From: Candidatus Kapaibacterium sp.
GTDB taxonomy: Bacteria; Bacteroidota; Ignavibacteria; Kapaibacteriales; UBA2268
Reading direction: 5' to 3'
DNA: 64,000 nucleotides
Assembly: GCA_013414795.1 (NCBI GenBank)
Contig: CP058732.1
Location: forward strand, 1-64,000
Positions within the stretch are counted from its first letter, which is position 1. Each line of letters begins with the position of its first letter. The position numbers and the translations under genes were made by a program. This document shows, piece after piece, positions 16,341 through 50,398 of this stretch. Below the pieces are notes generated by a model. That model saw only the letters and a program-made list of their open reading frames with translations, was not told the origin of the DNA and searched no databases.

Positions 16341-17774
16341 ATGGAAAAAATCAAAGAATTAACGAAAAAAATCCAAAGAATTCCAGCAACAATAATTAAT
16401 GCTCTTCCAGAAACTGAACGAAAAATTTTTGCTAATTACAAATTTATTCCGATTGACTTGCTCGTTCCTGCCGATTGGAACTATAAGGCTGATGATGAGT
16501 TTATGTCACAGCAACTTTTAAACAATATCAAACGCAATGGTCAAATCGTTACTTGCCAAGTACGAAAGCTTACTAGTGGTTTCTATGAGGTTGTCGATGG
16601 AAATCATAGACTAATCGCCCTTAAAAAACTTGGTTACGAATATGTTATAGTCTACGACCACGGGGAAATCTCACTGAGCCAGGCCCAGAGACTTGCAATT
16701 GAAACGAATGAAACTAAATTCAATGCTGATCCAACTAAATTGGCAAATCTATTCAAAGACCTTTCTTTAGATTTTCCTGATTTTGATTTGTTCGAAACCC
16801 TTCCTTTTACTCCTGAACAATTTAACGATATACTTAATTCATCTGAAGTTACAAGCATTGAAGATTACGAAGACTTCGAAGACCAACCAGAAATTGAAGA
16901 ACCAATTGAACCGAAAACAAAAAGAGGCGATTTATATGAACTCAACGGACATCGACTGCTTTGTGGAGATTCTACGTTAGCAGAAGATGTTGCGAAACTT
17001 ATGGACGGAAAAAAGGCTCATTTGCTTTTTACTGACCCCCCTTACAATATTAATTATACAGAACTAAACAAAGAGCGAAAATTCGGCAAAGGAAAGGATT
17101 GGATTGAAGCTAATTGCACGGGATGGAAAGATTTTATGAGCAACGAAGAATACCCAATATTTTTAGAAAAGTCTCTTGCAAATGCAAAGAATAATTTGAT
17201 TGAATATGCTCATTATTATGTCTGGCACGCCACGACTAACTTGCCTTCATTGATTCAAGCTTTTGAAAAAAACCAAATCCCTTACGATCCAATCCCTATA
17301 ATCTGGGTAAAGCAAGTTGCCCCAATTTCTTGGGTAAATTATTGGCGTATATATGAACCTTGCTTGTTTGGCGGTAAAGGAGCTATCAATGGTCAAGGTA
17401 AAGGTGCTCGCTGGTTCGGCGGAAACCACGACGTTAATGTTTGGAATGTTGATCGGGACCATAATGTTTTTTACATACATCCTACCCAAAAACCGTTGGC
17501 TCTCGCTCTTCGCGCAATGAAAAATAGTTCCAAAGAAAAAGAGATAGTTTTAGATTTGTTCCTGGGGTCAGGTTCTACTCTTATCGCTGCTGATTATTTG
17601 AATCGAATTTGTTATGGAATAGAATATGAACCTAAATTCTGTGATATGATTGTGCTTCGCTTCATAAAATATTGCGAAGATAAGAATAAAGAATATACCA
17701 TTAAACTCAATGGTAAAATTATAACCAAAGATTACTTTGACTATCCAAAAGATACAATAAAAATAAAGGACTAA
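16341..17774 (+). CDS. ParB-like nuclease domain fused to DNA methyltransferase (477 aa)
   Basis: Residues about 34-130 are a ParB/sulfiredoxin-type domain (VVDGNHRLIALKKLG at 84-98). Residues about 195-450 are an amino-methyltransferase with DPPY at 232-235 (motif IV) and DLFLGSGST at 405-413 (motif I), a beta-class order. Such fusions are common in phages near the terminase. They are thought to modify phage DNA to evade restriction or to regulate packaging. It is the first gene of the plus-strand late arm, before the terminase genes. Confidence 0.9.
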   Translation: MEKIKELTKKIQRIPATIINALPETERKIFANYKFIPIDLLVPADWNYKADDEFMSQQLLNNIKRNGQIVTCQVRKLTSGFYEVVDGNHRLIALKKLGYEYVIVYDHGEISLSQAQRLAIETNETKFNADPTKLANLFKDLSLDFPDFDLFETLPFTPEQFNDILNSSEVTSIEDYEDFEDQPEIEEPIEPKTKRGDLYELNGHRLLCGDSTLAEDVAKLMDGKKAHLLFTDPPYNINYTELNKERKFGKGKDWIEANCTGWKDFMSNEEYPIFLEKSLANAKNNLIEYAHYYVWHATTNLPSLIQAFEKNQIPYDPIPIIWVKQVAPISWVNYWRIYEPCLFGGKGAINGQGKGARWFGGNHDVNVWNVDRDHNVFYIHPTQKPLALALRAMKNSSKEKEIVLDLFLGSGSTLIAADYLNRICYGIEYEPKFCDMIVLRFIKYCEDKNKEYTIKLNGKIITKDYFDYPKDTIKIKD

Positions 17775-24428: not shown

Positions 24429-25394
24429 TTAAAATCCAAACTTCGCCCTTCTTTGTTTAATGTAATTTATCAAATTTAAACTTAAAATCCCAGTTAAAAG
24501 ATTGAAATCTTGATTTTGAAATTCATTTTGTTCTGAGAAATTCATTAATCTGTTTAAAATTCTTATCCAATTTGATATCTTTTCAAATTCTACAGTTCCA
24601 CTATGCTGTCTAAATTCTACTGTTTTATGTCTCCAGTAAGATTCAATGTTGACTTTAAAATATCTGCTTCGATAGGTTAATTCCCCCGACAAGCTTTCTA
24701 ATGAATCGCACTCAAATATTTTTCTTCTTGCTAATCCTTTGTTTAATACTAATCCCATTATGTATTGTGCACTTAAACTTCGGCAGTATCTATTATTATT
24801 GCCTCTTCTTGACTCTGGCATCATCTTGTCAATTTCGCTTTCCATCAAAATGTAATTGTAAACCAGTCTCTTCCAGGAATCCAAGCTGTAACCCCTCGCA
24901 TCAAAATGAACATGAAGTCCACAGGATTTGTTTACTTTTGCTTTAACTCTGACTAAAACCTCGCATACCTTTCGAAGCTCTTCTAATCCTTGTTCGCCTC
25001 TTAGTGGCGGGCTCACTAATTCAAAACTATTGGTGCCCTGGATTGAACTGTCTGATACTATCTTCCAGTAATCTCGGTCGATATGATTGTAACTTTCAGC
25101 ATTTACATTAATTCCTGCTTCTCTTAGTTTTGCTAAAACTATGTCTACTGGTACCCCGTAAGCTTCAATTTCAACTCCGAAGGTTCTCTTCCAGGCTCCC
25201 AGTTGATCGTTTGAGTTTTGGTTCAAATTCCTGGGGTTCCTTCTTGTCCCGTAGATACTTACATAGACATTGTGTGCGAATCCGTAATTCACGTTGAGCA
25301 ACTTTGCTACTTGTTTCCTTGTTAATCCCAGTTCAAAAAGTTGCTTCATTTTGTTTGTCTTGCTTGTGTTTTGGTTTAAAATTTGTTCAATCAT
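24429..25394 (-). CDS. Amidoligase family protein with N-terminal HTH-like region (321 aa)
   Basis: The core matches the glutamine-synthetase-like amidoligases. It has FGVEIEAYG (near residue 72), SFELVSPPLRGEQG, NKSCGLHVHFDARG with its metal-binding HxH, and HKTVEFRQHSGTVEF. The family forms ATP-dependent amide bonds, probably between a peptide or protein and an amino-group donor. Residues about 15-45 (LTRKQVAKLLNVNYGFAHNV) look like a helix-turn-helix, an unusual addition. AAAGGAG precedes the ATG. The substrate is unknown. Confidence 0.88.
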   Translation of the reverse strand: MIEQILNQNTSKTNKMKQLFELGLTRKQVAKLLNVNYGFAHNVYVSIYGTRRNPRNLNQNSNDQLGAWKRTFGVEIEAYGVPVDIVLAKLREAGINVNAESYNHIDRDYWKIVSDSSIQGTNSFELVSPPLRGEQGLEELRKVCEVLVRVKAKVNKSCGLHVHFDARGYSLDSWKRLVYNYILMESEIDKMMPESRRGNNNRYCRSLSAQYIMGLVLNKGLARRKIFECDSLESLSGELTYRSRYFKVNIESYWRHKTVEFRQHSGTVEFEKISNWIRILNRLMNFSEQNEFQNQDFNLLTGILSLNLINYIKQRRAKFGF

Positions 25395-25658: not shown

Positions 25659-28337
25659 CTATGATTTATTTTTTAAAAGTTTTGCCTTTAACATTTCTTC
25701 AAATTCATATTTTAATCTGGCGTTGTAAAATGGCAAGCTTAAAATTTTATATTCAGGAGTTTCCCACTCAATCATTGCTACTTGTTCCAATGTTTGGATT
25801 AATTCTTGTTTCCAGGGTTCGTTTTTAATATAAATATCATCCTTAGGTTCTATAAATATTTGTTTAATTTCAATTTTTTGATTGTTCTTTTTTCTTAAAA
25901 ACAAAACAAAATCTGGATAAAAAGCTTGACCATCTTCGAAATTATAAATTGCCCAAAATTGTTCATTGCGAATTAAGATGATGTCGTCATATTCTGCTTG
26001 TAATCTTTGATAGTAATCATTATCAAATTGTTTCAAAAAATCCAATTCAAGTCCGGTTCCCCAAAATTCATTTTGCGCATACCATTTTTTTTCTCCAATT
26101 CTCATCTTTTCGCTCGCAGAATTTATTTTGCTACTGTAAAAATCAAACGTTATTATTTTATCTCGTAATTTTTTCTTTATTTCTTCAGCATAAAACTTTT
26201 TTGATCCCCTAAACTGCTTGTTCCCCTTTATCATTCCCTGTGAAATCTTATTTAGAACAGTAATTAAAGCACCAAGTAAAGCTGGAAAGATTTTAACATC
26301 TTTCCTTCGAATCATTTCGATATCGGTCTCTTTTCCTACAAATTCTATTTCAATACCTCCTAACCAATTATCATTTTGATAAAAATCTTTAATGGTTCTC
26401 AACCCTGGAATAAAACGTTTTAAATTATCAAAATAGTAGAACTTGTTTTTATCTAATGCAAAGCGAACAATGTTTTCAGGTAAATCTTTTATTTTTAAGG
26501 TGGCACGATACGAAGGAACGTCTTGCTTTAAATCAAGTTCATTACTTAATATTGCCTCTTCATGGGTAAAATAAGTAGACAACGGGTAAACATGGCGACA
26601 TGGCACTGAAAAATCTTCGAGGGATTTAAATTCAGTTTTATCTACTTTGGTTAATTCGTTTAAAAAAATGAACCCTTCTTTCCAAAAATAAGTGTTTTTA
26701 AATTCTTCTTTGACCTTAATTTCTACTTCTCTTCGTTGCTTTTCCATTGCACCAATGTCCACAAGTGCCTTCTTAATCTCCGAAACATACTGGGGTTGAT
26801 ATGAACAATGATAATGCAATTGTTCCAAAATACGCAAGGGATTGCTAATATCCTTGTCAAATTTTCTTTTGTACTTATCCTGCTCCGAGTTTAAAGCAAA
26901 TGGCCAATACCGCATTCCCCGGCCGATTAATTGGGCTTCAGCGATAGTAGTCTTTCCAGGTTTGTTATTCCTGGAATCTCTTGTCTCATAAAGTCGAACA
27001 ATATCAAAAAGATTTAGTACGTCCCAGCCTTCGTTTAACATATCTACAGCAAAAATAGCCCTAATTTCATTATTGGGATCTTCCAATGAATTAACTAGAA
27101 TTTGTTTTTCTTCGCTATCTTGTTTTGAATTAACCGCTAAACATTTTTCCGGCGCAAAATCATTTTTAAGTTCTTCAACTAAATTTTCCAAAGGAATATC
27201 GTTTTCCTTAAAATATTGAAACGCTTCTGCGATAGACTGGAAAACGCTTTGGCTGATTTTGACTAAGTCGTAAACAGTTAAGTTATCTATAAGTTTTCTA
27301 AAGTCCAGTTCGTTTCGTTTGCTTTCTTCTATTGTTTTAGATTTGAATAAGATAACTGGCTTTAAGGGAAGCCCATTCTTCTCAGCTATCTTCCTTCTGT
27401 ACTGACTTAAAACAACCGCCTGCAACGCCCGTTCCATTGGATTGCGTATATCGGATTCAACAACTTCAATTTCCTTGGAATAACCTTCTTCTCTAAATCT
27501 AACCAAATCATATTTAAAGATGATTTTATTTTCGTACTTTTCCTTGATGGCTGGATGATTTAAGTCTATCGTTGCTGTGTATTCTAATAAAATATTTTTG
27601 CTTTCCCCATTTTTGTTTCTTTTCGGCAAAATTTTTTCTTGGATCGTCTTTTCCCACGCCCTTAATTCCTCTTTTTCTTCTTCCGATAACCCCTTGATTT
27701 GTTTTAGTTCCAAAATATCTGTATCCCAGATTAATTGTTGGCCTTTTTTGTCTTTGAGTTTTGTATAGGCTTGATAATGATGAGCTTCGTCAGCAATCAA
27801 AACTACTTCTTTCCCTTCAAAATCTTCCTCTGTTAGTGCGTTTTCTTTCGGCTTATTTATTCTTTCGTGCAATGCATTTATTGTAGTAAACATTATGTTG
27901 ATATCATCCTCAACCACATCGGACAAATTTTTAATTTCTCGTATTTTAACCTCTTTTCCATTAAAAATAACTTTTTCAGAAAACAAATATTTTGTTGATA
28001 AAGGATTTAAAAAGTTGTCCCGAGTTTTTTCTAATATATTGTTTCGATGGACAAAATAAATAAAAATCCGATAACCCAATTTATAAAGCGCAAGAATATT
28101 GGCGGCAATAATTAAAGTCTTTCCGCTCCCTGTTGCCATATTAAAAAGAAGATGGACCGGATATTGTTTCTTTTGGTAACCGTTAAAATAAAAATCAAAT
28201 CTTCCCAACGCCTCTTTCTGATATTCACGCAATTCGAATCTTGGGTTGAGGTTTTGAATAATCTCTTCGCTAACTCGAGATGTAAAAAAATTCTCTCCGA
28301 ATGATTCCTTCAAATCATCAAATTTTTGGTATAGCAT
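25659..28337 (-). CDS. res: Type III restriction endonuclease subunit Res (892 aa)
   Basis: This is a SF2 helicase-nuclease. Numbered from the ATG at 28337, Walker A ATGSGKT is near 68-74 and DEAH near 183-186, followed by helicase C-terminal motifs (AVDMLNEGWDV, QLIGRGMRY). The C-terminal nuclease shows YPDFVLFLRKK and IFIEPK, a PD-(D/E)XK pattern as in type III Res. It would translocate on DNA and cut unmodified targets together with Mod. A longer frame uses TTG at 28355; I prefer the ATG two bases after the stop of the HEPN-like gene. Length is typical and no break is seen. Confidence 0.93.
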   Translation of the reverse strand: MLYQKFDDLKESFGENFFTSRVSEEIIQNLNPRFELREYQKEALGRFDFYFNGYQKKQYPVHLLFNMATGSGKTLIIAANILALYKLGYRIFIYFVHRNNILEKTRDNFLNPLSTKYLFSEKVIFNGKEVKIREIKNLSDVVEDDINIMFTTINALHERINKPKENALTEEDFEGKEVVLIADEAHHYQAYTKLKDKKGQQLIWDTDILELKQIKGLSEEEKEELRAWEKTIQEKILPKRNKNGESKNILLEYTATIDLNHPAIKEKYENKIIFKYDLVRFREEGYSKEIEVVESDIRNPMERALQAVVLSQYRRKIAEKNGLPLKPVILFKSKTIEESKRNELDFRKLIDNLTVYDLVKISQSVFQSIAEAFQYFKENDIPLENLVEELKNDFAPEKCLAVNSKQDSEEKQILVNSLEDPNNEIRAIFAVDMLNEGWDVLNLFDIVRLYETRDSRNNKPGKTTIAEAQLIGRGMRYWPFALNSEQDKYKRKFDKDISNPLRILEQLHYHCSYQPQYVSEIKKALVDIGAMEKQRREVEIKVKEEFKNTYFWKEGFIFLNELTKVDKTEFKSLEDFSVPCRHVYPLSTYFTHEEAILSNELDLKQDVPSYRATLKIKDLPENIVRFALDKNKFYYFDNLKRFIPGLRTIKDFYQNDNWLGGIEIEFVGKETDIEMIRRKDVKIFPALLGALITVLNKISQGMIKGNKQFRGSKKFYAEEIKKKLRDKIITFDFYSSKINSASEKMRIGEKKWYAQNEFWGTGLELDFLKQFDNDYYQRLQAEYDDIILIRNEQFWAIYNFEDGQAFYPDFVLFLRKKNNQKIEIKQIFIEPKDDIYIKNEPWKQELIQTLEQVAMIEWETPEYKILSLPFYNARLKYEFEEMLKAKLLKNKS

Positions 28338-28339
28338 GG

Positions 28340-29353
28340 CTAAATTTGAATACAATGCTGAAAAAATATCATAGCTAAATTTAATATCATTCGAGCATTT
28401 TTCTCTGTTGCATATTCTTTTTTGGGATGCGAATCTCCAGTATGCTTTCTTTCTTGCGCAAATATCTCTTTAATGTTTTTGAAAATTAAACTAGTAAAAG
28501 TATCATTTGGAATAAGATTTTTCTTCTGTGCTTCTAATATTAATTCTGCAAGGGTACCTTTCCCAGTTTTTCCATATAAAATTATCTGGAGAAACGCCTC
28601 GATAGAAGAAATTGTGTGAGTAATGCAAGAACTATGACCATCAGGGGTTTTTTGTTGATAATCTCTAAATGCATCCTTCAAGTCACGATTAACCGGCGAC
28701 CATTTTTCGTCAGAGAGAAACTTCAAAACTGGTTCATAAATCTCTTTTGTGATTTTTTCGTCTTGTCTAGGAATAAATCCTTGTCTGGTGAGCACAACAT
28801 TAACACCAAATTGTTCAAAAACATCATTAAGCCTTTGGGCAAAGTCATCAAATTCTTTCCAATTTTTTAATCTATTTTGATATTCCTCTTCTGTCTCGTC
28901 CTTCCCTTTTTGAATATCTCTACTTGCTCTTTCGGAAATTAAAGCCTTGCAATATAAAGAAAGCAATTCCATAACAACATTTTCCGATTGCATTATAAAA
29001 ATGTCATAAAAATCACGGCAAGCTGTATCGATGTTTGGATGTTCTAAAAAATTTTTGGCATAACTTTTAGCTTTATATCTCTCGTTCAGAGTCGTGAGTG
29101 CAGATATAACTCGCTGCAATTTTTTATTTTGTTCCCAACTTTTGCCCAAAAACTCAAAGGATGCTACTTGAAATCCGAAATCATCTTTTTCATCCTTTTT
29201 TACAAAAAAATAATTTTTTAAATGTATCCAAATTTTATGTTTTTCCTCTTTGGTCAATGCATCCCAACTTCGCCAACCAAGATTTGGTTTTAATTCCTCT
29301 ATTGCAATTGGATTCAATTCACTCCAAAGTTTAAAGTTGCATTCATCTTCCAT
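28340..29353 (-). CDS. HEPN/Abi_C-like protein between mod and res (337 aa)
   Basis: The C-terminal 100 residues resemble the abortive-infection C-terminal (HEPN-type) domain. They comprise a helix SITHTISSIEAFLQII, a long loop, and then R302-X6-H309 within AQERKHTGDSHPKKEY, followed by a helix ending MIFFQHCI. The R-x4-6-H motif is the catalytic signature of HEPN ribonucleases. The N-terminal 230 residues are helical and not recognised. Its start overlaps the mod stop by 11 bases, with AGGGA ahead, and res follows at once. The three are one translation-coupled operon, which suggests a backup suicide function for the RM system. Confidence 0.75.
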   Translation of the reverse strand: MEDECNFKLWSELNPIAIEELKPNLGWRSWDALTKEEKHKIWIHLKNYFFVKKDEKDDFGFQVASFEFLGKSWEQNKKLQRVISALTTLNERYKAKSYAKNFLEHPNIDTACRDFYDIFIMQSENVVMELLSLYCKALISERASRDIQKGKDETEEEYQNRLKNWKEFDDFAQRLNDVFEQFGVNVVLTRQGFIPRQDEKITKEIYEPVLKFLSDEKWSPVNRDLKDAFRDYQQKTPDGHSSCITHTISSIEAFLQIILYGKTGKGTLAELILEAQKKNLIPNDTFTSLIFKNIKEIFAQERKHTGDSHPKKEYATEKNARMILNLAMIFFQHCIQI

Positions 29354-31226
29354 AAAATTCCCTATTTAATTTTTTATCCTCTTCCGATACCTGATAAGTT
29401 TCATCTTCAATTTCACTATAATTTACATACCAATGATTTTTGTCTAAACACTCATGTAAAAATCTTTTTTGGTCATCAATAGATAAATCATCAAAATCTG
29501 TTGCGTGTTCGTCAATTGTTTTTATATCAACTTTATAACTCAAGAATGCTTTCTCTTTCATTTCTTCCCACAATTTTTTAAGTTCTTCTTTTGTTTTTGC
29601 CTTTTTAATCTTATCAGCAAAGTTTGCATTCCATTTCATAAGTTCTAAATAGATAAAATCGCCATTACCTAACTTTTTAACAACATTTTTTGCTCGTGGC
29701 ACTGTAATTGTATCTACATAGTCAAGTTGTTCGCAGAGAATAAATTGTCTGTTACCGCCGTCTTCTTTATTAAGCTCCAAAACTGCTTGTGCAGTTGTAC
29801 CACTTCCGGCAAAGAAGTCCATAACAATACCTTCTTTTTCAAACATCATAATCGATTTAATTAAGATTTTTATTAATTCTACGGGTTTTGGATATTCAAA
29901 ACCTTTTAATCCTAATCTTTCAAAATCATACTTACCCTTCTCAGATAAAAAACCTTCGATAACCGGACCTTCTGCATTGTTGATATTTTTTATTATCGAA
30001 TAAAAAGTTGAATATGCCGTCTCTAGTGGCTCTAATCTACAAACTATATGTTTACCGCTTGGATGTTTTTCTAGTATGTATTCCCCAGATTTAATTTTCT
30101 CATCAACTTCTCTTTTCTTCTCTTTTCCTTTATATTTTTCTATCTCTTCGTAAAAACATCTTCTATCGAATTCTTCGGTTTTATTTTCACTATATTTTCC
30201 AAATACTTTTCGCAAAAAATCGTCGTTCTTAATATATTTTCGTCCATTGATTTCTATAATTGGCTTCTGAATACTTTTTTGTCTTTTTAAAGTTATAGGT
30301 TCATCAAAACTTCTATAAACCAAAATGTAATCATGTCCCCGCACAATCTCTTTTGCCTGACCTCCTCCTTTTGCCCTTTGCCAAACTAAAACTCCTACAA
30401 ATCTGTCTCTATCAAAAATTTCATCACATAACACTTTTAGATAAGCCTGCTCATAATCATCACATTGAATAAATATCACACCTTCATCGTTAAGTAATTT
30501 TTTAGCAACCTCTAATCTATTTTTCATAAAAGTAAGCCAAGTAGAGTGATTAAAAGCGTCGTTATATTTAAATTCATCATTGCCAGTATTATACGGTGGG
30601 TCAATATAAATTAGTCTTACTTTTCCGGCAAAGCGTTTTTTAAGTGAATGAAGGACTAACAGATTATTCCCTTTGATGATTAAGTTGTCTTTAATGTTTC
30701 CTTTATCGTCGGTCTTAAATCCATCGAACGAATGTTCTCCGTTTGCATCAATTCTTTTTGCGTTGGTAAAAACTTTTGGGTCTAAAAGGCGTGTTATTTC
30801 ATCTGGCGATAAGGTTTCATTCCAAAAAATTTCATCTCGTTTTTGGTCTTCTTTGGTCATATCTCCTTCTAAAACGCAATCTTTATAAGGCCAGGATAAA
30901 ACAACCTCTTTTTTTTCGCTTATAAACTCCCCTTTTTCATCTACTAAACCGATTTTGTTTTTAAAAGCAGTGTAACTATCGGGTAAAAATTGTTTGTTTG
31001 ATACGAACTTTATAAACTTGTCTTTATCAAAAACCAGAACTTCATTGATTTCCACAAAAAAAGTTTTTTTTAGCCTTTCATCATTCAAAAGAATTTTAAG
31101 TAACCCCTCATCGAGTTTCAGAGCAACCTCAACAATCTTATTTTTCAACAATAAATTACCTTCACCAACAAATCTTTTATCTTGAATCAACTTTTGCTTG
31201 AGATATTCCAACAAATCCGTATCCAT
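29343..31226 (-). CDS. mod: Type III DNA methyltransferase Mod (627 aa)
   Basis: This adenine-N6 methyltransferase has DPPYNTG at 209-215 (motif IV), a variable target-recognition region near 290-440, and DFFAGSGTT at 470-478 (motif I). The motif order and the flanking regions match type III Mod subunits. It recognises the asymmetric site, methylates one strand, and guides Res. GAGGG stands just before the ATG. It leads the mod - HEPN-like - res operon. The whole unit lies between phage early and late blocks, as cargo. Confidence 0.95.
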   Translation of the reverse strand: MDTDLLEYLKQKLIQDKRFVGEGNLLLKNKIVEVALKLDEGLLKILLNDERLKKTFFVEINEVLVFDKDKFIKFVSNKQFLPDSYTAFKNKIGLVDEKGEFISEKKEVVLSWPYKDCVLEGDMTKEDQKRDEIFWNETLSPDEITRLLDPKVFTNAKRIDANGEHSFDGFKTDDKGNIKDNLIIKGNNLLVLHSLKKRFAGKVRLIYIDPPYNTGNDEFKYNDAFNHSTWLTFMKNRLEVAKKLLNDEGVIFIQCDDYEQAYLKVLCDEIFDRDRFVGVLVWQRAKGGGQAKEIVRGHDYILVYRSFDEPITLKRQKSIQKPIIEINGRKYIKNDDFLRKVFGKYSENKTEEFDRRCFYEEIEKYKGKEKKREVDEKIKSGEYILEKHPSGKHIVCRLEPLETAYSTFYSIIKNINNAEGPVIEGFLSEKGKYDFERLGLKGFEYPKPVELIKILIKSIMMFEKEGIVMDFFAGSGTTAQAVLELNKEDGGNRQFILCEQLDYVDTITVPRAKNVVKKLGNGDFIYLELMKWNANFADKIKKAKTKEELKKLWEEMKEKAFLSYKVDIKTIDEHATDFDDLSIDDQKRFLHECLDKNHWYVNYSEIEDETYQVSEEDKKLNREFYGR

Positions 31227-31387
31227 TTCCCTCTACCCAAAATTTTCAAATCAAACCATTCAAAAACAATAACTATGAGAAAATCATAACAAATTATTAA
31301 GTAAATAAAAAAAATAACAAAATTAAAAATTTAAAAATTTTTGTGTTTATAAAATGTAAAAATTGTTTTATTTTGATTTTTAAAAAA
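31227..31387. promoter_or_regulatory. Divergent intergenic region between mod and thermonuclease
   Basis: This very AT-rich 161-bp gap must hold the minus-strand promoter for the type III RM operon and the plus-strand promoter for the thermonuclease gene. I see long A/T runs but no convincing pair of hexamers and no clear operator palindrome. Confidence 0.4.
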
Positions 31388-31894
31388 ATGACAAAAATGA
31401 AACCAAGAGGATTTATACTAACCATAGTTTTTTTCTTATTTGGTCAATTGTTTGTCTTTAGTGACCAAAACCAGACTTGCGTCGTCGACTACATCATCGA
31501 CGGCGATACCTTCGCTTGCGGTGAAGAACACATACGACTCATCGGTATCGACTGCCCTGAAAGTTCATTTAACGCACGCGTAAAGAAACAGAAAGAACTT
31601 GGCGACCCGAAAACTGTAGTTGCCCTTGGGAAAAAAGCAAAAGAATTCGTTCAGTCGATTTTAAAGCCTGGAACAAAAGTCAAACTTGAATTTGATGTTC
31701 AAGAGAGAGATGTTTACGGACGGATTCTTGCATACGTTTGGTTGCCCGATGGACGCATGCTTAATGAAGTTATCCTTGAAGAAGGTTATGCAATGCTGTT
31801 GACCATTCCACCAAATGTTAAATATGTCGACAGATTTAAAGAAGCATACCAAAAGGCTCGGGCAAACAAAAAAGGTTTATGGAAAGACAAATAA
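31388..31894 (+). CDS. Exported thermonuclease (SNase family, 168 aa)
   Basis: An N-terminal signal peptide (about residues 1-24, with GFILTIVFFLFGQLFVFS) precedes a staphylococcal-nuclease domain. The catalytic features are present: DYIIDGDTFACGEEHIRLIGIDCPES, a central ERDVYGRILAYV with the conserved Arg, and the terminal KGLW. It would degrade DNA or RNA outside the cytoplasm using calcium. The ATG at 31388 removes a basic extension of the longer frame and gives a normal signal peptide. In a phage such a nuclease may degrade competing DNA or host debris. Confidence 0.88.
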   Translation: MTKMKPRGFILTIVFFLFGQLFVFSDQNQTCVVDYIIDGDTFACGEEHIRLIGIDCPESSFNARVKKQKELGDPKTVVALGKKAKEFVQSILKPGTKVKLEFDVQERDVYGRILAYVWLPDGRMLNEVILEEGYAMLLTIPPNVKYVDRFKEAYQKARANKKGLWKDK

Positions 31895-35614: not shown

Positions 35615-38047
35615 TTAAAAGGGTTCATCATAGTCATCATATTCTTCAATTTTATCGTTATTTTTATCAAAATTTGAAAGATTTTCAGCACAAGGTTGAG
35701 TTTTTCGGCATAAAGACAACCCAATGAAAACTTTTTGTTGTTTACGGTCTTTTGTACAAGGAAAGCCTTTTTCTTCTAAAAGTCTGAAGAAGGTTTTCTT
35801 TCCTATTGGATGTTCCTTATGCTCCTCACACCACTTTGTGTAAGCCTCGTAAAGATCCGTACCCTTTTCTTTTCCATCCTTGTCTATCACAATGCTATCG
35901 TTAAAAAAGTCGAAAAGCAAATCCTGGTCATCTTTGTAATTCGACGTTGCCGTGGCTACAATTTTAGGAATCTTCAAACCTTCATCAATATATTTTTTCC
36001 AACCATTAACAATCCAAGTCAAAATCCCCGGAGCTTCACCCTTAAGTTGTTCAAGAATAACCGACTGTGGTAACCTCTTCTCTGGTGGAATCGTCTGCTC
36101 GAACGGTATCAGGACCATCCGACGCCAGATACCATTGTCAGCCCCCTTAATTTCAGGTTTATGATTACCAAAAATCCATAGAATAAATGTAGGCTCGAAG
36201 GTAAAGAAGTTCTGATAAAGATTACGGACCTTGACAGCATCACCACCGGTCAACATCTTAACAGTAGCCTCATTCAGATGTTTGTTAATAGGAATCTCTG
36301 TTGTAACAACGAACCTTGCACCTACCAGGGAAGCTATTTCCGACTTTTTGCTGTCATCAAAACGTTGTGTAATTAACGCTTCAATCGGAAGCAAACTAGC
36401 ATACTCGCCATAAATATATCTGATAGTATTTACAAAAATAGACTTACCATTCGCCCCGGTACCATATAGAAACACAATGATTTCCTCGAGGTGAGCACCG
36501 CAGAGAGAGAGCCCACATATCTTCTGAACAAATTCAATCAGTTCCTGATTACCGTTAAAATACATATCAAGTGCAGCCAACCAGGTTGGACATTCAGCCT
36601 TTGGATCGTACTCAATAGGGATAACTTTGGTAATCATATCATTAGGATCGTTCTTGCGAAACTCCATCGACTTTAAATCCAACGTACCATTCGCAAAATT
36701 GACCAGGTACAAGTTTCTATCCCAATCGTTGTGAGTAGTTGCAAACTCGGGCTCACAAGCTGCAAGTTTAAGCGAATCATCAATGTTTCGAAGCGTTTGT
36801 GATGATTTATGCCAGGCACGAATAGCCTTCGGGTCGTAACCAGCAGCAATATACAATCCCTCGTCTTCAATAATAGAATCACTAATTGCTTTTGCCAAAA
36901 GTCTAATATTATCCTTGGTATCCGGTCTCCATCGAGTACCATCCCAAATCAACCATTCTTTGGTTGTAAAGTTATATTTCAAAGTGTCTTTATACTTTTT
37001 CAAAAATCGCATAGCATTGCCGATTTGAGTCAAAGGCGGTAAATCCCCGTTTAAAGAATGGTTTAAATCGACAGATGTTTTGTCAATGATGACCGACACT
37101 TTCTTTAACCTGGGTTTCCCGTTACCAACAAAACCAAGCTCTGCCAGCTCCTTTGCAGCCTTTCGGAAATCACCACCGTGTTCAAGCAAAGCATAAACGC
37201 TGAATTTATCGTAGGAATGTTCCGGTTCAAAGGGTGGGGCGTTAGACGAGAAGACATAAAACTTGTTCGGAATAAAATTAAAAGTAGCACTCCAGCCTCT
37301 ACCACTTTTACCCGGCCTTTGCCAAAATTCCCGCGGACCAGAACGGTGGACCAGCCGCCAGCCGTGCTTTTCCAAATACTTATGAATGTCGCCCTCTTTG
37401 TTGAACAAATCACCCGGTCTATCTTTCTTTGTTTCTGATGTATACTCTTTTGATTTGATGGTAGGAGGTTCTTTCTCTATTTGATTAAAAGAGCGACAAA
37501 TATCTAAAAGCAATTCCCGTTCCTCGGCAGATATGACAGGAACCTCGGGGAAAGTGTTTTGAAGTAAAGAATAACCGTCCGAAGGATAAACAAGCGCATA
37601 ACCACCCTCGCCTCTGGTCTCAATAAAAGTATCATGCTTGCCGTTTACAACCCGAGATGCAAGTTTTGTGTTCCCAGAGATAACAGTATTGGCACGATAC
37701 ACAATATGATATCCCCCAGACTGAGTTTTTTGAATCACAAGTTTGTCAAAGAGCCCTGGCAATGTCCCGTTTAATATCTCTTTCCATTCCCAAAAAATCC
37801 GGTCAGCGTCTCCAATATGATTATCAATGTCAATAAACTCCAGATTCCCGCTGACACGTCCGGCAACAATGGCAACATCCATCGGATGCTTTCTTTGAAA
37901 CCATTTCCTTGCCTCTTCAATGGTGGGTAGCCTTTCTTGGTATACTTTCCAACTTACAGCGGGTTTCTTGGTGCCAGGTACAATGGGAAGAACAGATAAT
38001 CCACGTTTTAAGTAACCATATATCAGATTTAAAAAGCCTTCATTCAT
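35615..38047 (-). CDS. Prim-Pol / SF3 primase-helicase (810 aa)
   Basis: The N-terminal part (about 1-190) is a bifunctional primase-polymerase domain. FIDIDN at 71-76 supplies the catalytic acids, and GYHIVYRA is present. A middle region follows. The C-terminal half is a D5/SF3 helicase with Walker A GTGANGKS at 529-536, FVVTTEIP, and ILWIFGNHKPEI (motif C). The D5 C-terminal wing comes last. It primes and unwinds phage DNA at the origin. The start has AAAGGGGG. The acidic C-terminus ends DDYDEPF. Confidence 0.93.
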   Translation of the reverse strand: MNEGFLNLIYGYLKRGLSVLPIVPGTKKPAVSWKVYQERLPTIEEARKWFQRKHPMDVAIVAGRVSGNLEFIDIDNHIGDADRIFWEWKEILNGTLPGLFDKLVIQKTQSGGYHIVYRANTVISGNTKLASRVVNGKHDTFIETRGEGGYALVYPSDGYSLLQNTFPEVPVISAEERELLLDICRSFNQIEKEPPTIKSKEYTSETKKDRPGDLFNKEGDIHKYLEKHGWRLVHRSGPREFWQRPGKSGRGWSATFNFIPNKFYVFSSNAPPFEPEHSYDKFSVYALLEHGGDFRKAAKELAELGFVGNGKPRLKKVSVIIDKTSVDLNHSLNGDLPPLTQIGNAMRFLKKYKDTLKYNFTTKEWLIWDGTRWRPDTKDNIRLLAKAISDSIIEDEGLYIAAGYDPKAIRAWHKSSQTLRNIDDSLKLAACEPEFATTHNDWDRNLYLVNFANGTLDLKSMEFRKNDPNDMITKVIPIEYDPKAECPTWLAALDMYFNGNQELIEFVQKICGLSLCGAHLEEIIVFLYGTGANGKSIFVNTIRYIYGEYASLLPIEALITQRFDDSKKSEIASLVGARFVVTTEIPINKHLNEATVKMLTGGDAVKVRNLYQNFFTFEPTFILWIFGNHKPEIKGADNGIWRRMVLIPFEQTIPPEKRLPQSVILEQLKGEAPGILTWIVNGWKKYIDEGLKIPKIVATATSNYKDDQDLLFDFFNDSIVIDKDGKEKGTDLYEAYTKWCEEHKEHPIGKKTFFRLLEEKGFPCTKDRKQQKVFIGLSLCRKTQPCAENLSNFDKNNDKIEEYDDYDEPF

Positions 38048-38104
38048 AATTTCCCCCTTTTTTCCCTAGCGAAGTAGGTATCAAGATGAATGTTTAGGTC
38101 TTGT

Positions 38105-38782
38105 TTAGCGTCGCCATCGAGGTGATAAGACCCCATCGACCGCTGGAGCACCAAACTTTTCGAATTCCGGGTCGAACATAGTAGTGAAGCGAGCATTTTC
38201 CCAGCTCAGGACTTTGGCATATCGGTCGTAAAACCAAAGATATGGAAGTTCTCTGGAAACAATATATGCCCAAATATCCAACCAACTCCAGTTACCAACG
38301 GGATAATATTCTTTTATCGCCGTGAGGCTGAATTCGGTTTTGATACGTTGTTTTCGTTTCGTAGATTCTGCTGAACGCAAGCCTACAAAAACACCATCAT
38401 AACCTTTTTCTTGCATATGTTTCGCAAGGTCCGAAAGAACAATTCCCATTACACCAATTGTTCGCTCCGGTGGAAGTCGGAAGATTGGATGGGCATATAT
38501 TTCGAAATTCCAATTCATTTCTTTTGCTATTTTTCGAATCTCTTTGTGAATTGGTCTAGGAATGAGATATTTTCCATAATCGATATGCAATACCAAAATA
38601 CCTGGTTTGATTAGGTTTGCCATATGAGAAACTACCAAACTATCTTTTCCACCGGAAAATGTGCTGTAAACATTTCGTTCAGTGAGAGCATTTCGGATAA
38701 TTTCTGTGGCTTGTTGTACTTTCGCTTGAAATTCATCACTTTTGCTCCATTCTAAAAATGTTTCACGCCATCTATTTTCCAT
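38105..38782 (-). CDS. cysH-like: CysH-like PP-loop protein of type IV-B cassette (225 aa)
   Basis: The protein belongs to the PAPS-reductase/PP-loop family. It has SGGKDS at 43-48, followed by HIDYGKYLIPRP and the family's GLRSAESTKRKQR. True PAPS reductases need a C-terminal Cys. This protein has no cysteine anywhere, so simple sulfonucleotide reduction is unlikely and ATP pyrophosphatase or adenylylation chemistry is more plausible. A cysH-like gene is the known companion of subtype IV-B csf cassettes. The gene overlaps csf3 by 11 bases. Confidence 0.85.
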   Translation of the reverse strand: MENRWRETFLEWSKSDEFQAKVQQATEIIRNALTERNVYSTFSGGKDSLVVSHMANLIKPGILVLHIDYGKYLIPRPIHKEIRKIAKEMNWNFEIYAHPIFRLPPERTIGVMGIVLSDLAKHMQEKGYDGVFVGLRSAESTKRKQRIKTEFSLTAIKEYYPVGNWSWLDIWAYIVSRELPYLWFYDRYAKVLSWENARFTTMFDPEFEKFGAPAVDGVLSPRWRR

Positions 38783-39539
38783 TGTCGAGCCTCATTAATT
38801 CAAGGGTTTCTGGGAGAAGTTCAACATCTGCCAAAGGTGGAACGCATCGCTCTTCGAAATCCGAACTCCAATATGGAGAACGCCAGGTGAGAACAAAACT
38901 GTCAGAATATTTTTTGCAAAATCGCACCGGGATTGGTCTTTGGGCTTTTCCGTTCCAGACTATACTTCTGTCTTCGTCAATGGGATTAATTTCATATTTC
39001 AGAACTCGACCCCAACCAATTCGAGTATTATCGCCCAAAGAGACAACCTCATCGAGCATTTGACGCAACCCTTCGATATCGCCTACAATGTAAAAGCGAA
39101 TTTTTGAGGCTGGAACATAGATATGGTGCATTACATAGGCTTTGAAATGTCCGGAGCCCTGATAAAGTTTTTTAAGTTTACCGAGCCAAGCAATTTCGGC
39201 TTTTTTGTACATTTTTTCGCTTTTCATTATGGATGGTTCGAAGAAGGATATAGAGCATTGGGGAATCAATCCAGCAGAACGATACGGTAGATATGGGATT
39301 TCCACATCTTTCATCAGACGTCCAATAGGAAATTTCGATGGAAGCAGGAAATAATCATATCCCAAAAGTTTCCGAAGAGCAAGATGTGAAATTAATCCAT
39401 CCAGATGAATCCAGGGATGCGAAAGAGCGATTGGAGATGCCATAGTGAAAACAATTTCAAGGGGCTGGAAATGCCATTTGCGAGGCAAATCCATAGCCCC
39501 AAGTAGTATTTTGTCTAAAAAATACTGACTTTCTGTCAT
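38772..39539 (-). CDS. csf3: Csf3-like protein, Cas5-type RAMP of type IV CRISPR system (255 aa)
   Basis: The N-terminal part (PLEIVFTMASPIALSHPWIH then LDGLISHLAL) and the late Gly-rich loop (GDNTRIGWGRVLKYEI) match the type IV Csf3/Cas5 pattern. The RAMP-type fold caps the 5' end of the guide RNA in type IV complexes. Length is typical. The start overlaps csf2 by four bases. Identification is by pattern and by gene order (csf1, small subunit, csf2, csf3, cysH). A profile search would confirm it. Confidence 0.8.
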   Translation of the reverse strand: MTESQYFLDKILLGAMDLPRKWHFQPLEIVFTMASPIALSHPWIHLDGLISHLALRKLLGYDYFLLPSKFPIGRLMKDVEIPYLPYRSAGLIPQCSISFFEPSIMKSEKMYKKAEIAWLGKLKKLYQGSGHFKAYVMHHIYVPASKIRFYIVGDIEGLRQMLDEVVSLGDNTRIGWGRVLKYEINPIDEDRSIVWNGKAQRPIPVRFCKKYSDSFVLTWRSPYWSSDFEERCVPPLADVELLPETLELMRLDNGK

Positions 39540-40372
39540 AGCATATCCGAAAGTCTGTTCAACAAATTGAGGATTTTGTCTTTATTGTCCCTAATATGTG
39601 CCAGATATAAATTTCCAGATGGAGGTTCTGGAGTATATTCAAAAAGAACCTCGCCATTTCCAGTACCAGAAAGTCCACCCACCCAAGGATTGAAGCGGAA
39701 AAGTTCAATTAATCGTCCAAAAACAGAGGCTTCAATTTCATTTGCGTATTCAGTGACAAACCAGTGATAGAATTTAGTTCCGGGAATAAAACATTCAAAA
39801 TCAACTTTCATTTGAACTGCTTGTTCATCTTCTTGTCTATTTGCCCGCAGGTCATCTCTCCGAGTTTGGAACGATTCGTCACAGAAAGAACGAACATATC
39901 TATTTGTTCGTTCATCGTTTTGTAGAAAGTTTGGAAGGAAAACAGCATATTCTTTGCAAACCGGGAAGGCATGTCCCACTTTGAGTTTCCCCTGAATAAT
40001 TTGATTCCCGATTGAACCGCCAAGAAGAGAGAGATGGGGAAAAGTATCCCGGATTTCACGTCGCAAAGAAAGGTCTATACCAGCATTATTTGATTCCGCT
40101 GCTTCTAGTGCTCCTCCGGAGAAGAATATGTGATATACTTTTGGGTTCAAATCTTCTGGGGTAAGCCCAAGAATTTCAAAATATTCATTCATAAGCATTC
40201 GACGAAGTTTTCCTCTGATTGCGTTCCCGTTTATATATGGCATTTGAACTTCGCCAATTCCATCGACATACATAAAAATAGTTCGCAAGACGGGAGTACT
40301 GCCAGTTTTTTCATTTCCACCGTGATGAATGGTGGTTTTTGCAAGCATCCATCCATCATATTTCTGAATCAT
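39536..40372 (-). CDS. csf2: Csf2-like protein, Cas7-type backbone of type IV CRISPR system (278 aa)
   Basis: The Cas7-like RAMP pattern is clear: PYINGNAIRGKLRRMLM from residue 45, IFFSGGALE, and then SLLGGSIGNQIIQGKLKVGH. Csf2 polymerises along the guide RNA as the backbone of the type IV effector. I choose the ATG at 40372 because GGAG lies seven bases upstream; the longer frame to 40426 only adds a hexanucleotide-repeat peptide. It overlaps the small-subunit gene by 17 bases and csf3 by four. Confidence 0.85.
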   Translation of the reverse strand: MIQKYDGWMLAKTTIHHGGNEKTGSTPVLRTIFMYVDGIGEVQMPYINGNAIRGKLRRMLMNEYFEILGLTPEDLNPKVYHIFFSGGALEAAESNNAGIDLSLRREIRDTFPHLSLLGGSIGNQIIQGKLKVGHAFPVCKEYAVFLPNFLQNDERTNRYVRSFCDESFQTRRDDLRANRQEDEQAVQMKVDFECFIPGTKFYHWFVTEYANEIEASVFGRLIELFRFNPWVGGLSGTGNGEVLFEYTPEPPSGNLYLAHIRDNKDKILNLLNRLSDML

Positions 40373-40781
40373 TTTCAATCTCCGAATTGTTGAACAAATT
40401 GATTTCATTTTCATTTTCATTTTCAATTTTTTCTACTGTGTTTTTCGTGTCTTCTTTCATTTTTGCTTTCTTTGCTTTTGCACGTATTATTGCCTTCACA
40501 CAAAAAGGAATATGTTCCTTGGAAAGCGTGTTGAGTACCCAATATTGATATGGTCTGAGGATTTCAAGTTTTTCTAATGCTTCTTCGGGAATAGATTGTA
40601 ACCCGAAATAATTAGATAGTTTCGAAGCGAAAGTAAAAAGACTATCACGTCTTGATGCGGCGCGAACCCGGTGATTAAAAATATCATGCGGGTTCTTGGA
40701 AGTTCGCATTTTACCCCAAGGCACCCGTCCGTAGATGATTGCCAGGAAATCGACGAGTGCCTCTTCAAGTTCAGCATACAT
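40356..40781 (-). CDS. Cas11-like small subunit of type IV cassette (141 aa)
   Basis: This small, mostly helical protein begins MYAELEEALVDFLAII and contains LRPYQYWVLNTLSKE. It lies where subtype IV-B loci carry cas11. The fold is inferred from size, helicity and position. GGGAGG, which sits at the end of the methyltransferase gene, is the ribosome site for the ATG at 40781. The last 30 residues are an acidic Glu/Asn tail, partly encoded by GAAAAT hexanucleotide repeats. Confidence 0.65.
   Translation of the reverse strand: MYAELEEALVDFLAIIYGRVPWGKMRTSKNPHDIFNHRVRAASRRDSLFTFASKLSNYFGLQSIPEEALEKLEILRPYQYWVLNTLSKEHIPFCVKAIIRAKAKKAKMKEDTKNTVEKIENENENEINLFNNSEIENDSEI
40403..40426 (-). repeat. 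GAAAAT hexanucleotide microsatellite
   Basis: Three perfect copies and one imperfect copy of a hexamer (plus strand TTTCAT three times, then TTTCAA) lie in the 3' part of the Cas11-like gene, 30 to 50 bases upstream of the csf2 start. Unit changes keep the reading frame, so they alter tail length only. Confidence 0.7.
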
Positions 40782-40819
40782 ATACAACTACCTCCCAATT
40801 TGGTTGTGAGACATATTTT
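40772..40819 (-). repeat. 48-bp direct repeat, distal copy (remnant csf1 3' end)
   Basis: This segment matches 41477-41524 at 39 of 48 positions (counted by eye). In the csf1 frame it encodes KYVSQPNWEVVVYVC and then TGA, against KYVSQPNWEIVVYVI and TGA at the true end of csf1. It spans the methyltransferase 3' end and the cas11 start. Confidence 0.9.
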
Positions 40820-41519
40820 GAATTGGTAACCCTTGTTGGTAGAAAAATTCAATCAAACAAGCAAGCCTTCGTTTGTTCAGTTCAGTGCCGAAAAAGGTTT
40901 TCCCCAAAGAATGCGCGGTTCTAGCGGTAAGTCCAATTCCGGTGCATAGATCAAGCACAGAATTAATATTTGGTTCAAACTGCATTGCAAGTCGAGGAGT
41001 AAATTCATCATCAATACCCGTGAAATCGAAATCAATAATCATAGGAGTTTCAAAACTGTATCGAATTAAAAAACAGGGATGCTTATGATAGTACTTAATT
41101 TTCCAAATATTCGTAACAATTCCGTTCTGTGAAGTAATTAATTTTGTTACGAAGTCAAGGTTTTGCCTTCCCATTTCAAGATAATTTATCCGTGGAGAAT
41201 AAGTACTAATCAAGTTAATCAGTTTTTCCATAAAGGGTTCAAATTTTTTTCTTTGCGAAAATCCAGCCTTTGTATAAAAAGCATTCAAATTCCCGGTACT
41301 CCAAGGAGGATCGCAGTATGAAATATCAAATCGAGAGATACCAAAGAAGTCCAAATTGGAAAGTTCCGTAATATCCTTCACTGCCAAAATATGTTTTCCA
41401 ACTTGCCAAACCTCACCATCTTCAATAGGGAATTTTTCCCAGGAATCACCATAAAGCCATTTTCTATTTTTCTTCTCAGATAACATAGACAACAATTTCC
41501 CAGTTTGGTTGTGAAACAT
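40788..41519 (-). CDS. DNA methyltransferase (DPPW type) inserted in csf cassette (243 aa)
   Basis: The protein carries CDPPWSTGNLNAFY (DPPW at 70-73, motif IV) and VLDLCTGIGLTAR (motif I at about 190-196). This is an adenine-type amino-methyltransferase with motif IV before motif I. The open frame starts inside the last 44 bases of csf1 and ends just before cas11. Both ends lie within 48-bp direct repeats, so the gene appears to have been inserted. An in-frame ATG at 41486 is an alternative start. It may modify phage DNA or mark targets for the csf complex; neither role is shown by sequence. Confidence 0.85.
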   Translation of the reverse strand: MFHNQTGKLLSMLSEKKNRKWLYGDSWEKFPIEDGEVWQVGKHILAVKDITELSNLDFFGISRFDISYCDPPWSTGNLNAFYTKAGFSQRKKFEPFMEKLINLISTYSPRINYLEMGRQNLDFVTKLITSQNGIVTNIWKIKYYHKHPCFLIRYSFETPMIIDFDFTGIDDEFTPRLAMQFEPNINSVLDLCTGIGLTARTAHSLGKTFFGTELNKRRLACLIEFFYQQGLPIQNMSHNQIGR

Positions 41520-42084
41520 ATTTTTTCACTTCATCAAGAAGGTTGGCAAAACCTTTTTCAATCCCTTTACGATACGTGCTCATTGAGAATTCTCCGGTTT
41601 TTAATTCGGTTTTAGAAACCTTTTGTTCATGCAGTTTTGAAGCAATTTCAAAAAGATATACCAGCTCTTGAAACTCCGTAAAAACACAGCCAGCAAAGTC
41701 TGTATGGATGAAGAATTTTTCCTTTGAAAAACTTATTCGCCGAAAGCCACGCAACCAGCCTTGTTTCTGTCCGGTGCTGGTAATATAAACTGCAAATGGT
41801 AGAGGTTTATTGGGATTTATCAAAAAAGCAGCAATTTCCTCTCTTTTTACAAACTGCACACCATTTTCGGACAATATCCAGTTTTTGCGCCGGAAATTTT
41901 GGTCTTGGAAAAACGCAGCACAAAAGGGACATAACACATTGCCGTATTGCAATTCAGAATAGGCCGTGAAAGTATCTGACGGCTTGAATTGATGTCCGTT
42001 TTTAGTGTATGTTCCGCATAGTACACAATATCCACTTTCAGAGCCATCTTTTATTGGTTGCAAAAAATATGATATTGCTTTCAT
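41476..42084 (-). CDS. csf1: Csf1-like protein with zinc finger, type IV CRISPR system (202 aa)
   Basis: The protein has a four-cysteine zinc finger, C20-x2-C23 (GYCVLCG) and C52-x2-C55 (VLCPFCA). Length, the zinc finger and first place in the cassette match Csf1, the signature large-subunit-like protein of type IV systems. Near the C-terminus lies KYVSQPNWEIVVYVI, which is duplicated after the methyltransferase gene. GGGGAA precedes the ATG. It starts 18 bases after the SSB-like gene, so it has no promoter of its own. Confidence 0.78.
   Translation of the reverse strand: MKAISYFLQPIKDGSESGYCVLCGTYTKNGHQFKPSDTFTAYSELQYGNVLCPFCAAFFQDQNFRRKNWILSENGVQFVKREEIAAFLINPNKPLPFAVYITSTGQKQGWLRGFRRISFSKEKFFIHTDFAGCVFTEFQELVYLFEIASKLHEQKVSKTELKTGEFSMSTYRKGIEKGFANLLDEVKKYVSQPNWEIVVYVI
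41477..41524 (-). repeat. 48-bp direct repeat, proximal copy (csf1 3' end / methyltransferase start)
   Basis: This is the intact csf1 3' terminus and also contains the methyltransferase ATG at 41519. It pairs with 40772-40819 at a distance of 705 bp, an exact multiple of three. Most of the nine differences are at third positions of csf1 codons. Confidence 0.9.
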
Positions 42085-42102
42085 TTTGTTCCCCGCAAAA
42101 TG

Positions 42103-42672
42103 TTAAAATGGTAAATCTTCATCATCAACAACAGATACAGTATCATCTGCTTCTTCATCTTTGATTAAATCCTTTTTGGGATCGAACGGCTTGAGTTCAT
42201 ACAAAACATTAAACCATTTGTCAACAATCTTCTTAAGGTGAGCAATCTTTTCCTCACCATCCTTCCCGTTAAATTTCAAATCAGAAAACTTGTATTTCCA
42301 CCTAAGATATGCACCGTTCCATCTGACAAATATGTTTAAGTTGCTCTCCTTCTTCTTCATGATTAACCGGATGTGATTGTTGCCAGCGGTCAATTCGTTG
42401 GGGGGAACAGACAACAATTGATTCAAAAGCTTAAACGCTAGCCAACTATACTTGCCAAATTCAAGGCAGTAGACGTAACCGTCCTCAATGTAAATGTCAA
42501 TCTTTTTCTGTGGTTTTCCTTTGAACTCATACTCATGAGTATTGATTCCAAGGAAAGTTCCTTCAAATCCCGGGTAGGTTTGCCCATCAACGATAAACCC
42601 ACCGTCGTCCTTGTCAATATTTACAAACTGGATTTGCTCCTTAGCCAGTTTATCTTTTGATATAGCACCCAT
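42103..42672 (-). CDS. Phage single-stranded DNA-binding-like protein (189 aa)
   Basis: The C-terminus ends VVDDEDLPF, the acidic tip with terminal Phe used by SSB proteins to recruit replication partners. The preceding 150 residues are beta-rich with aromatic residues (VYCLEFGKYSWLAFKLLNQL), consistent with an OB-fold, though not a classical SSB by sequence. AAGGAGG precedes the ATG. It lies beside the recombination nuclease and just upstream of csf1. Confidence 0.75.
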   Translation of the reverse strand: MGAISKDKLAKEQIQFVNIDKDDGGFIVDGQTYPGFEGTFLGINTHEYEFKGKPQKKIDIYIEDGYVYCLEFGKYSWLAFKLLNQLLSVPPNELTAGNNHIRLIMKKKESNLNIFVRWNGAYLRWKYKFSDLKFNGKDGEEKIAHLKKIVDKWFNVLYELKPFDPKKDLIKDEEADDTVSVVDDEDLPF

Positions 42673-42682
42673 TGTAACCTCC

Positions 42683-43321
42683 TTATTTAATGACTAAAGT
42701 TGATTTTTGGAAAATTCGAAGTCCAGGAATTGAACGCACGCCCGCTTGAATCGCTTGTCGAACTTTGGTTTCGTTCAGTTCCAGATATTCAAGCGGAATT
42801 TTTGAAAAGTCCTCTACTTCAAATGTCCAAATCATACGCAGAGAAGAAGATTTTTCTGAAAGCGCAGCTGCCTTTTGTTCAATCTCGGCTAATTGTTGTA
42901 TTTTTGTAATTTGATCTGCGTCGTTCTGAGTTTGCGCACGGCGTAGTTCTTCTTCTTGGCGACGCCTCTCTTCTTCGATGCGGCGAAGTTCTTCGAGGCG
43001 TCGTCTCTCTTTTTCCTCTTCATATTTTTGAATCTGTGATCGCAGAGATTTGACCGCGTTGTTCAGCTCGTTGGTTAGAGATTTTGCGAAGTCGTCGATT
43101 TGCTTCTTGCGATCCAGAAGCGGCTTAGTAACCTCTTTCCTTTTCTCCTCGATGAAAGTCTCGATTTGCTTCGCTTCCTTAACAAGCTTTTTCCCACGCT
43201 CGAGTGTTTCGTCATTATGCACGACAAAATTCTTGCAAGCATTAGCTAGCGCGTCGATTTGCTGTTTTGCAGTTGCAATGACTTCCAGCCCGTTGGGTTG
43301 GACTTTTTGCATTGTTTCCAT
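42683..43321 (-). CDS. Coiled-coil phage recombination-associated protein (212 aa)
   Basis: A long Arg/Glu-rich coiled coil (about residues 90-135) is followed by a conserved C-terminal domain, WTFEVEDFSKIPLEYL then VRQAIQAGVRSIPGLRI. This domain recurs in phage early regions next to RecB-like exonucleases and recombinases. It lies between the nuclease and the SSB-like gene. The precise function is unknown. AGGAGG precedes the ATG. Confidence 0.75.
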   Translation of the reverse strand: METMQKVQPNGLEVIATAKQQIDALANACKNFVVHNDETLERGKKLVKEAKQIETFIEEKRKEVTKPLLDRKKQIDDFAKSLTNELNNAVKSLRSQIQKYEEEKERRRLEELRRIEEERRRQEEELRRAQTQNDADQITKIQQLAEIEQKAAALSEKSSSLRMIWTFEVEDFSKIPLEYLELNETKVRQAIQAGVRSIPGLRIFQKSTLVIK

Positions 43322-44421: not shown

Positions 44422-44432
44422 ATTCCCTCCCA

Positions 44433-44666
44433 TTAATTTTTAATGATTGAATTAAACTTATGATGAGCCTTTTCAATAGCTTCCCATTCGTTTCTCGCTT
44501 CAACAGTCAGGCAAGGGTAAATCTCCCTTGCCCTACTCTTTGCCAAGATTTTTAAGTTAGTTCCGTAAATGTAAATGTTGGTTCCAATCTGATATCTAGG
44601 TTGCTCGAAGGATAAACGATACACTTTAAATTGCTTTTTGCCGTTATTTTGAGCTAATGTAGTCAT
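44433..44666 (-). CDS. Hypothetical early protein (77 aa)
   Basis: Not recognised. This small basic protein has VYRLSFEQPRYQIGTNIYIYG and a C-terminal helix. AAGGAGGAG precedes the ATG, which overlaps the upstream stop by four bases. It is part of the tightly packed early operon. Confidence 0.7.
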   Translation of the reverse strand: MTTLAQNNGKKQFKVYRLSFEQPRYQIGTNIYIYGTNLKILAKSRAREIYPCLTVEARNEWEAIEKAHHKFNSIIKN

Positions 44667-45004
44667 TTCTCCTCCTTACTTTCAATTTCCACAAATTTTA
44701 TTTGTAGTTTGTTGAGTTTCTCTAAAACTGCATCAGAGATGTGTTTTTGAAAATCCAAAAGTGCCTCGAGAAGTTTGTTATATAAAATTATCGCTTCGGA
44801 TTGAGTGTAGATTCTATATTGAAAAGTGCGAAGCAGAATGTGATTAAGAGAAGGCAAGATATTGTTAGGATGAATGGTTGCGCTATTCTCTTTCTCTTGG
44901 AATACAACAGCTTTGTAATCCAGCAAAGAGAAATACTTTTCGCGGAGAACATTAGCCTGTTCAATCAAGGCTAGTTTTTCCTTTAATTCAGGACCTTGGT
45001 TCAT
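44663..45004 (-). CDS. Hypothetical helical early protein (113 aa)
   Basis: Not recognised. The protein is almost entirely helical with coiled-coil-like stretches and ends in EIESKEEK. It overlaps its neighbours by four bases on each side. The size and pattern resemble those of the next gene upstream; the two may be partners. Confidence 0.65.
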   Translation of the reverse strand: MNQGPELKEKLALIEQANVLREKYFSLLDYKAVVFQEKENSATIHPNNILPSLNHILLRTFQYRIYTQSEAIILYNKLLEALLDFQKHISDAVLEKLNKLQIKFVEIESKEEK

Positions 45005-46731: not shown

Positions 46732-46749
46732 TAATAAAAGGATTGGCTT

Positions 46750-47721: not shown

Positions 47722-47747
47722 TAAATTTTTTTTGTTATTTTAGTATT

Positions 47748-47945: not shown

Positions 47946-48019
47946 ATAACTAAAAGGATTTGGAAAAACAAAATATATCGATAATCTGTCGGTTTTTTTT
48001 CATAAACTAAAGGTGTCTT

Positions 48020-48541: not shown

Positions 48542-48547
48542 TTTTGT

Positions 48548-48649: not shown

Positions 48650-48684
48650 CCCAAATTGCTAAATTCAAAAGCAGGAGATGTCAA

Positions 48685-50137: not shown

Positions 50138-50141
50138 GTTA

Positions 50142-50396: not shown

Positions 50397-50398
50397 AG

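Follow-up and report, generated by a model that had tools for sequence, protein, structure and literature searches.

Three consecutive genes on the minus strand of the window (the whole 64,000-nucleotide stretch analyzed here) form a type III restriction-modification (R-M) operon with an additional gene between its two enzyme subunits. The first gene, mod (29343–31226), encodes a type III DNA methyltransferase of 627 aa with DPPY at 209 and FAGSGT at 472, and matches PF12564 (TypeIII_RM_meth; 4.7e-23), N6_N4_Mtase (8.6e-36) and the PADLOC profile MTase_III (2.4e-151). The last gene, res (25659–28337), encodes a restriction subunit of 892 aa from its ATG, and matches ResIII (4.5e-25) and PADLOC REase_III (6.3e-116). 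Its product contains both helicase and PD-EXK nuclease motifs (GSGKT, DEAH, QLIGRG, PDFVLF...FIEPK), so that the features by which a type III system is recognized, a Mod profile with methylase motifs and a Res with helicase and PD-EXK motifs, are all found. Because the catalytic motifs of Mod and Res are kept, the R-M system is intact, as judged by motif. The middle gene (28340–29353) encodes a protein of 337 aa, which we assign from the family alignment and predicted structure to an unnamed, AbiJ-like family with a predicted HEPN domain.

The order mod-middle-res and the coordinates given by an initial annotation of this DNA are correct, and the 11-base overlap that it reported between the end of mod and the start of the middle gene is exact (29343–29353, ATGGAAGATGA). 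Within this overlap, the ATG of the middle gene falls where mod encodes its terminal FYG, and it is preceded by a Shine-Dalgarno-like AGGGA. In the ORF list, the start of res is placed at 28355, a TTG within the middle gene, which is a mechanical choice; in the nearest relatives the protein opens with MLYE from an ATG corresponding to 28337, so the start is probably there, 2 bases past the middle-gene stop and thus right after it, as had been described. This anatomy fits translational coupling. A fixed stoichiometry, which had been deduced from it, does not follow, since an overlap alone does not imply such a ratio. A scan for promoters and terminators returned signals no more frequently than in shuffled sequence, and the boundaries of the operon are therefore not fixed.

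The operon lies within a prophage (about 551–50137), as evidenced by genes for tape measure and head proteins, terminase, a Mu-type portal, primase, an S24 repressor (48685–49104) and an integrase (49079–50137), all in the window. The three R-M operon genes have a G+C content of 31–32%, as compared to about 38% in the remaining prophage, which fits a later acquisition.

A predicted HEPN domain of AbiJ-like type

The middle protein had been proposed as a HEPN ribonuclease from the presence of R302-X6-H309 in its C-terminal domain. The motif is indeed there (RKHTGDSH, 28427–28450, minus strand), as a predicted RNase active site. Taken alone it is uninformative, and we rejected it as sole evidence for HEPN identity: an R-X4-6-H motif occurs in 64% of shuffled versions of the same protein. 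Alignment of the five known family members, which are 47–64% identical to the window protein, shows R302 and H309 to be invariant (5/5), and in the predicted structure the motif lies between the last two helices (285–304 and 317–336) of a HEPN-like fold. For these reasons, the motif is more than a chance occurrence. Two secondary HEPN features, described as typical but optional (PMC3710099), are a polar residue (N, D or H) after the arginine and an upstream E-x3-[K/R]; family members have K, G or Q at the former position, and no conserved E-x3-[K/R] is evident in the five-member alignment.

Structure comparison supports the HEPN identity. An AlphaFold model built on a four-row alignment was confident in the C-terminal half and poor in the N-terminal half (mean pLDDT 60.6), with the loop that bears H309 below 50. 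The HEPN-like domain spans about residues 215–337 (28343–28711, minus strand). When the C-terminal part (about residues 214–337) was compared with the PDB, the best rows were all HEPN proteins, led by sacsin (Z 10.9), AF0298 (10.1), TT1696 (10.1), the C-terminal domain of AbiA (8oz7; 9.3) and LsoA (8.6), followed by HepT-type toxins and Csm6. The model of a 53%-identical homologue from an unclassified MAG (L003) gave a similar result, with Z up to 9.8, ten best rows of HEPN proteins down to Z 7.3, and a first non-HEPN row at Z 5.6. Helical bundles may reach middling Z-scores by chance, and the Foldseek E-values were all above 0.6 and thus not significant; the HEPN assignment therefore rests on the consistency of the lists, their agreement between two members, and the placement of the conserved motif. 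On these grounds we consider a HEPN fold very probable for the middle protein, and catalytic activity probable, with less confidence.

Activity is the point on which one alternative turns. AbiA shares with the middle protein both the fold and an R-X6-H motif (RNSNPVSH), and its HEPN domain, which accompanies a reverse-transcriptase-like domain of AbiA's own, showed no RNase activity (PMC11077055). Along with the precedent of MtlR and the position of the gene directly before res, this could point to an inactive HEPN domain serving as an RNA- or DNA-binding regulator, for example of Res expression, or as a dimerization module. Such a role appears unlikely given that the arginine and histidine are invariant in all five members, and that the family is also found without res and outside R-M loci.

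We also sought to place the middle protein among named HEPN groups. It passes no curated family cut-off in any of the sequence-profile libraries, has no profile match for an NTPase domain, and has no relative in the PDB by sequence search; its N-terminal part is without a family match or a confidently predicted fold. The matches, weak though consistent, were to NF046078 (STM4504/CBY_0614; 2.6e-7, 30.2 bits; 9e-8 for L003), the PADLOC candidate PDC-S32 (2.9e-7), and PHROG 20794, annotated as of unknown function (5.4e-6). As the curated cut-off of NF046078 is 150 bits and the best homologue reached 31.7 bits, we regard the family as a distant relative of this group rather than a member.

An Abi_C identity, suggested in the initial annotation, found no support. 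Abi_C proteins share with the middle protein the C-terminal position of the domain and the R-X6-H spacing, occur beside hsdS in one genome (L029), and in one case (L028) carry an R-X6-H in register with that of the middle protein. They differ in that the PF14355 profile matches no protein of the middle family (nor any in the host's own genome), and profile comparison was no better than shuffles, with 8/60 shuffles reaching the score of L028 and 36/60 that of L029.

By contrast with these shuffle results, a protein that matches NF046078 and carries AbiJ_NTD4 (PF18863; 1.4e-11) aligned with the middle-family profile over residues 168–335 better than 60/60 shuffles. This relative (L032) lacks an R-X6-H at the aligned position, so the middle protein may be described as AbiJ-like with its own version of the active site, outside the named families. 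The AbiJ_NTD4/STM4504-CBY_0614 group is thus the nearest relative found, with a similarity that is remote but significant. Its proteins resemble the middle protein in the C-terminal half, in length and in two-part build, but AbiJ_NTD4 was reported for none of the five middle-family members. NF046078 members above the cut-off were absent from sets of 60 and 296 genomes.

Family contexts and the mod-res junction

The five members of the family come from the window, a genome of the same taxonomic family (L002), the unclassified MAG (L003), a Sumerlaeota bacterium (L004) and a Magasanikbacteria bacterium (L005). Wider searches of 395, 380 and 40 genomes yielded no further member, and no relatives of the middle protein were found in plasmids, phages or viral contigs. 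In L003, the gene follows HSDR_N-N6_Mtase and T5orf172 genes and precedes, by 24 bases, a gene for a Methylase_S protein, an order that we read as a BcgI-like arrangement. In L005, it lies between EcoRI_methylase and GmrSD_N-HNH genes with junctions of 2 and 11 bases. No R-M gene was found within about 8 kb on each side of the gene in L002/L011, while the truncated L004 protein sits at a contig edge and its context is unreadable. Two of the three homologues with readable context are therefore inside R-M loci and one stands without an R-M neighbor. Counting the window, three R-M contexts and a solitary one were observed, and the family so accompanies R-M systems of varied make-up, and in one case none.

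The gene upstream of the EcoRI_methylase in L005 encodes a Bro-N protein (3895–4767), and a similar Bro-N protein is encoded between mod and res in another operon (L023, 4806–5651), such that proteins of this type adjoin two different R-M systems.

To survey the mod-res junction, we read it in the operon of the window and in 17 others, the latter comprising six from near the host (L019–L024), five from the same phylum (L040–L042, L044, L045) and six from plasmids (L034–L039). The two genes were adjacent in 12 of the 18 (including L035, where res is annotated in two pieces and the slot was counted as empty), and one or more genes lay between them in 6/18, a fraction that is not a census, as the loci were chosen as relatives of the window Res. 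Besides the Bro-N gene, the slot held an SLFN_AlbA_2 gene with an additional ORF, which may reflect a split gene (L019); genes for an SLFN_AlbA_2 protein and then a Fic protein in a close relative (L020, 2731–5756); a PDDEXK_3 gene (L040); and a gene whose 145-aa product matches no Pfam profile (L034). The middle gene of the window was found in none of the 17 other operons. Surveying type III loci for the same middle gene had been proposed as a check, and the result argues against mod-HEPN-res as a defined system: five slots hold other genes, and elsewhere the middle gene accompanies different R-M types or, in one case, stands by itself.

The same observations bear on two further readings. Operon position and overlap might suggest that the middle gene supplies the type III enzyme with a third subunit, whether structural or for specificity, but we consider this highly improbable, with the slot empty in 12 operons, unrelated genes in the five other filled slots, and homologues in other R-M types. 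The diversity of slot contents (SLFN_AlbA_2, Fic, Bro-N, PDDEXK_3) would also suit an unrelated passenger without a defense role. Recurrence of one family between the methylase and its partner in two other R-M types seems too specific for a random passenger, making this reading improbable as well.

The window, L019 and L020 share a manner of entry into the slot. In all three, the ATG of the inserted gene falls within the FYG codons near the mod end (TTT TAT GG) and is preceded by AGGGA or AGGGG, so that whichever gene follows may find both a ribosome-binding site and a start in the tail of mod. We treat this as an observation rather than a rule, since the three loci are few and related. A more speculative extension, which we think doubtful, is that the mod end is a built-in loading site (Shine-Dalgarno-like AGGG plus ATG) through which interchangeable effectors of a second defense line (HEPN, Schlafen-AlbA_2, with Fic) would be co-translated with the R-M enzyme, the HEPN family acting as a general guard that responds to one signal shared by unrelated R-M systems.

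A putative second line of defense

HEPN effectors linked to R-M systems are already known. At least 16 such clades have been described, a two-layer defense has been proposed for them, and PrrC is the tested case (Anantharaman and colleagues 2013, PMC3710099). What is new here is this family and its slot; our search of the open-licence literature found no description of the family or of a mod-HEPN-res operon. The window locus resembles PrrC/EcoprrI in having a HEPN RNase gene (predicted, in the window) inside an R-M operon as a second defense line. It differs in that PrrC belongs to a type Ic system and carries an NTPase domain of ABC type, whereas the middle protein lacks an NTPase domain and its R-M system is of type III.

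We propose, with a probability of roughly 0.6, that the middle gene encodes a HEPN ribonuclease of AbiJ-like type, and that R-M operons carry it as cargo that can be exchanged and is translated along with them; in the window it occupies the mod-res junction of an intact type III operon within a prophage. The protein would be translated from the same mRNA, with its ATG embedded in the final mod codons, and would be kept inactive until infection, when it would cleave RNA and stop growth. It would thus act as an abortive-infection RNase, set off either on its own or by a signal shared among infections. The RNase activity, its inhibition at rest, the trigger, the target and the benefit against phage are parts of this model that we infer. 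The idea in the initial annotation of restriction followed by RNA-cleaving arrest, already published in general form, is plausible for this locus.

The main rival is a guard of the PrrC kind, in which the R-M enzyme would bind and silence the HEPN protein, releasing it once the enzyme is attacked by an anti-restriction protein of a phage. Embedding and co-translation of the gene in the operon, the precedent of PrrC itself (PMC3710099, PMC12707154), and the R-M context of two out of three readable homologues all speak for this arrangement. However, the partners differ (type III Mod/Res, a BcgI-like HSDR_N-N6_Mtase with specificity subunit, and an EcoRI methylase with GmrSD-HNH), and one copy has no adjoining R-M system, leaving PrrC-like guarding possible but rather unlikely. 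Because these partners have no obvious common subunit family, we favor a common infection trigger or autonomous action over PrrC-style docking.

If our proposed reading is true, an undescribed family joins the R-M-linked HEPN effectors, and one effector family moves between unrelated R-M types. One could then test whether effectors of this kind respond to their R-M partner, as in the PrrC model, or to a common infection signal. The mod-res junction would also be a place to seek unknown defense genes.

Other genes of the prophage

Several other genes in the prophage were noted. An Amidoligase_2 gene (24429–25394, minus strand; 2.6e-45) adjoins the cassette on one side, and a Staphylococcal-nuclease-like gene (31343–31894, plus strand; SNase 6e-23) is divergent from mod on the other. 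A ParB-like domain fused to a DNA methyltransferase is encoded immediately before the terminase genes (16341–17774, plus strand). No CRISPR array was found in window positions 36000–51500, and type IV CRISPR-Cas effector genes are present at 38105–42084 (minus strand), with matches to Csf3/Cas5 (9.2e-49), Csf2/Cas7 (1.6e-67), Cas11 (2.6e-36) and Csf1/Cas8 (2.1e-37). A methylase-like gene (40788–41519) lies amid them. This locus also includes a CysH-like gene (PAPS_reduct), a link that recalls type IV-B.
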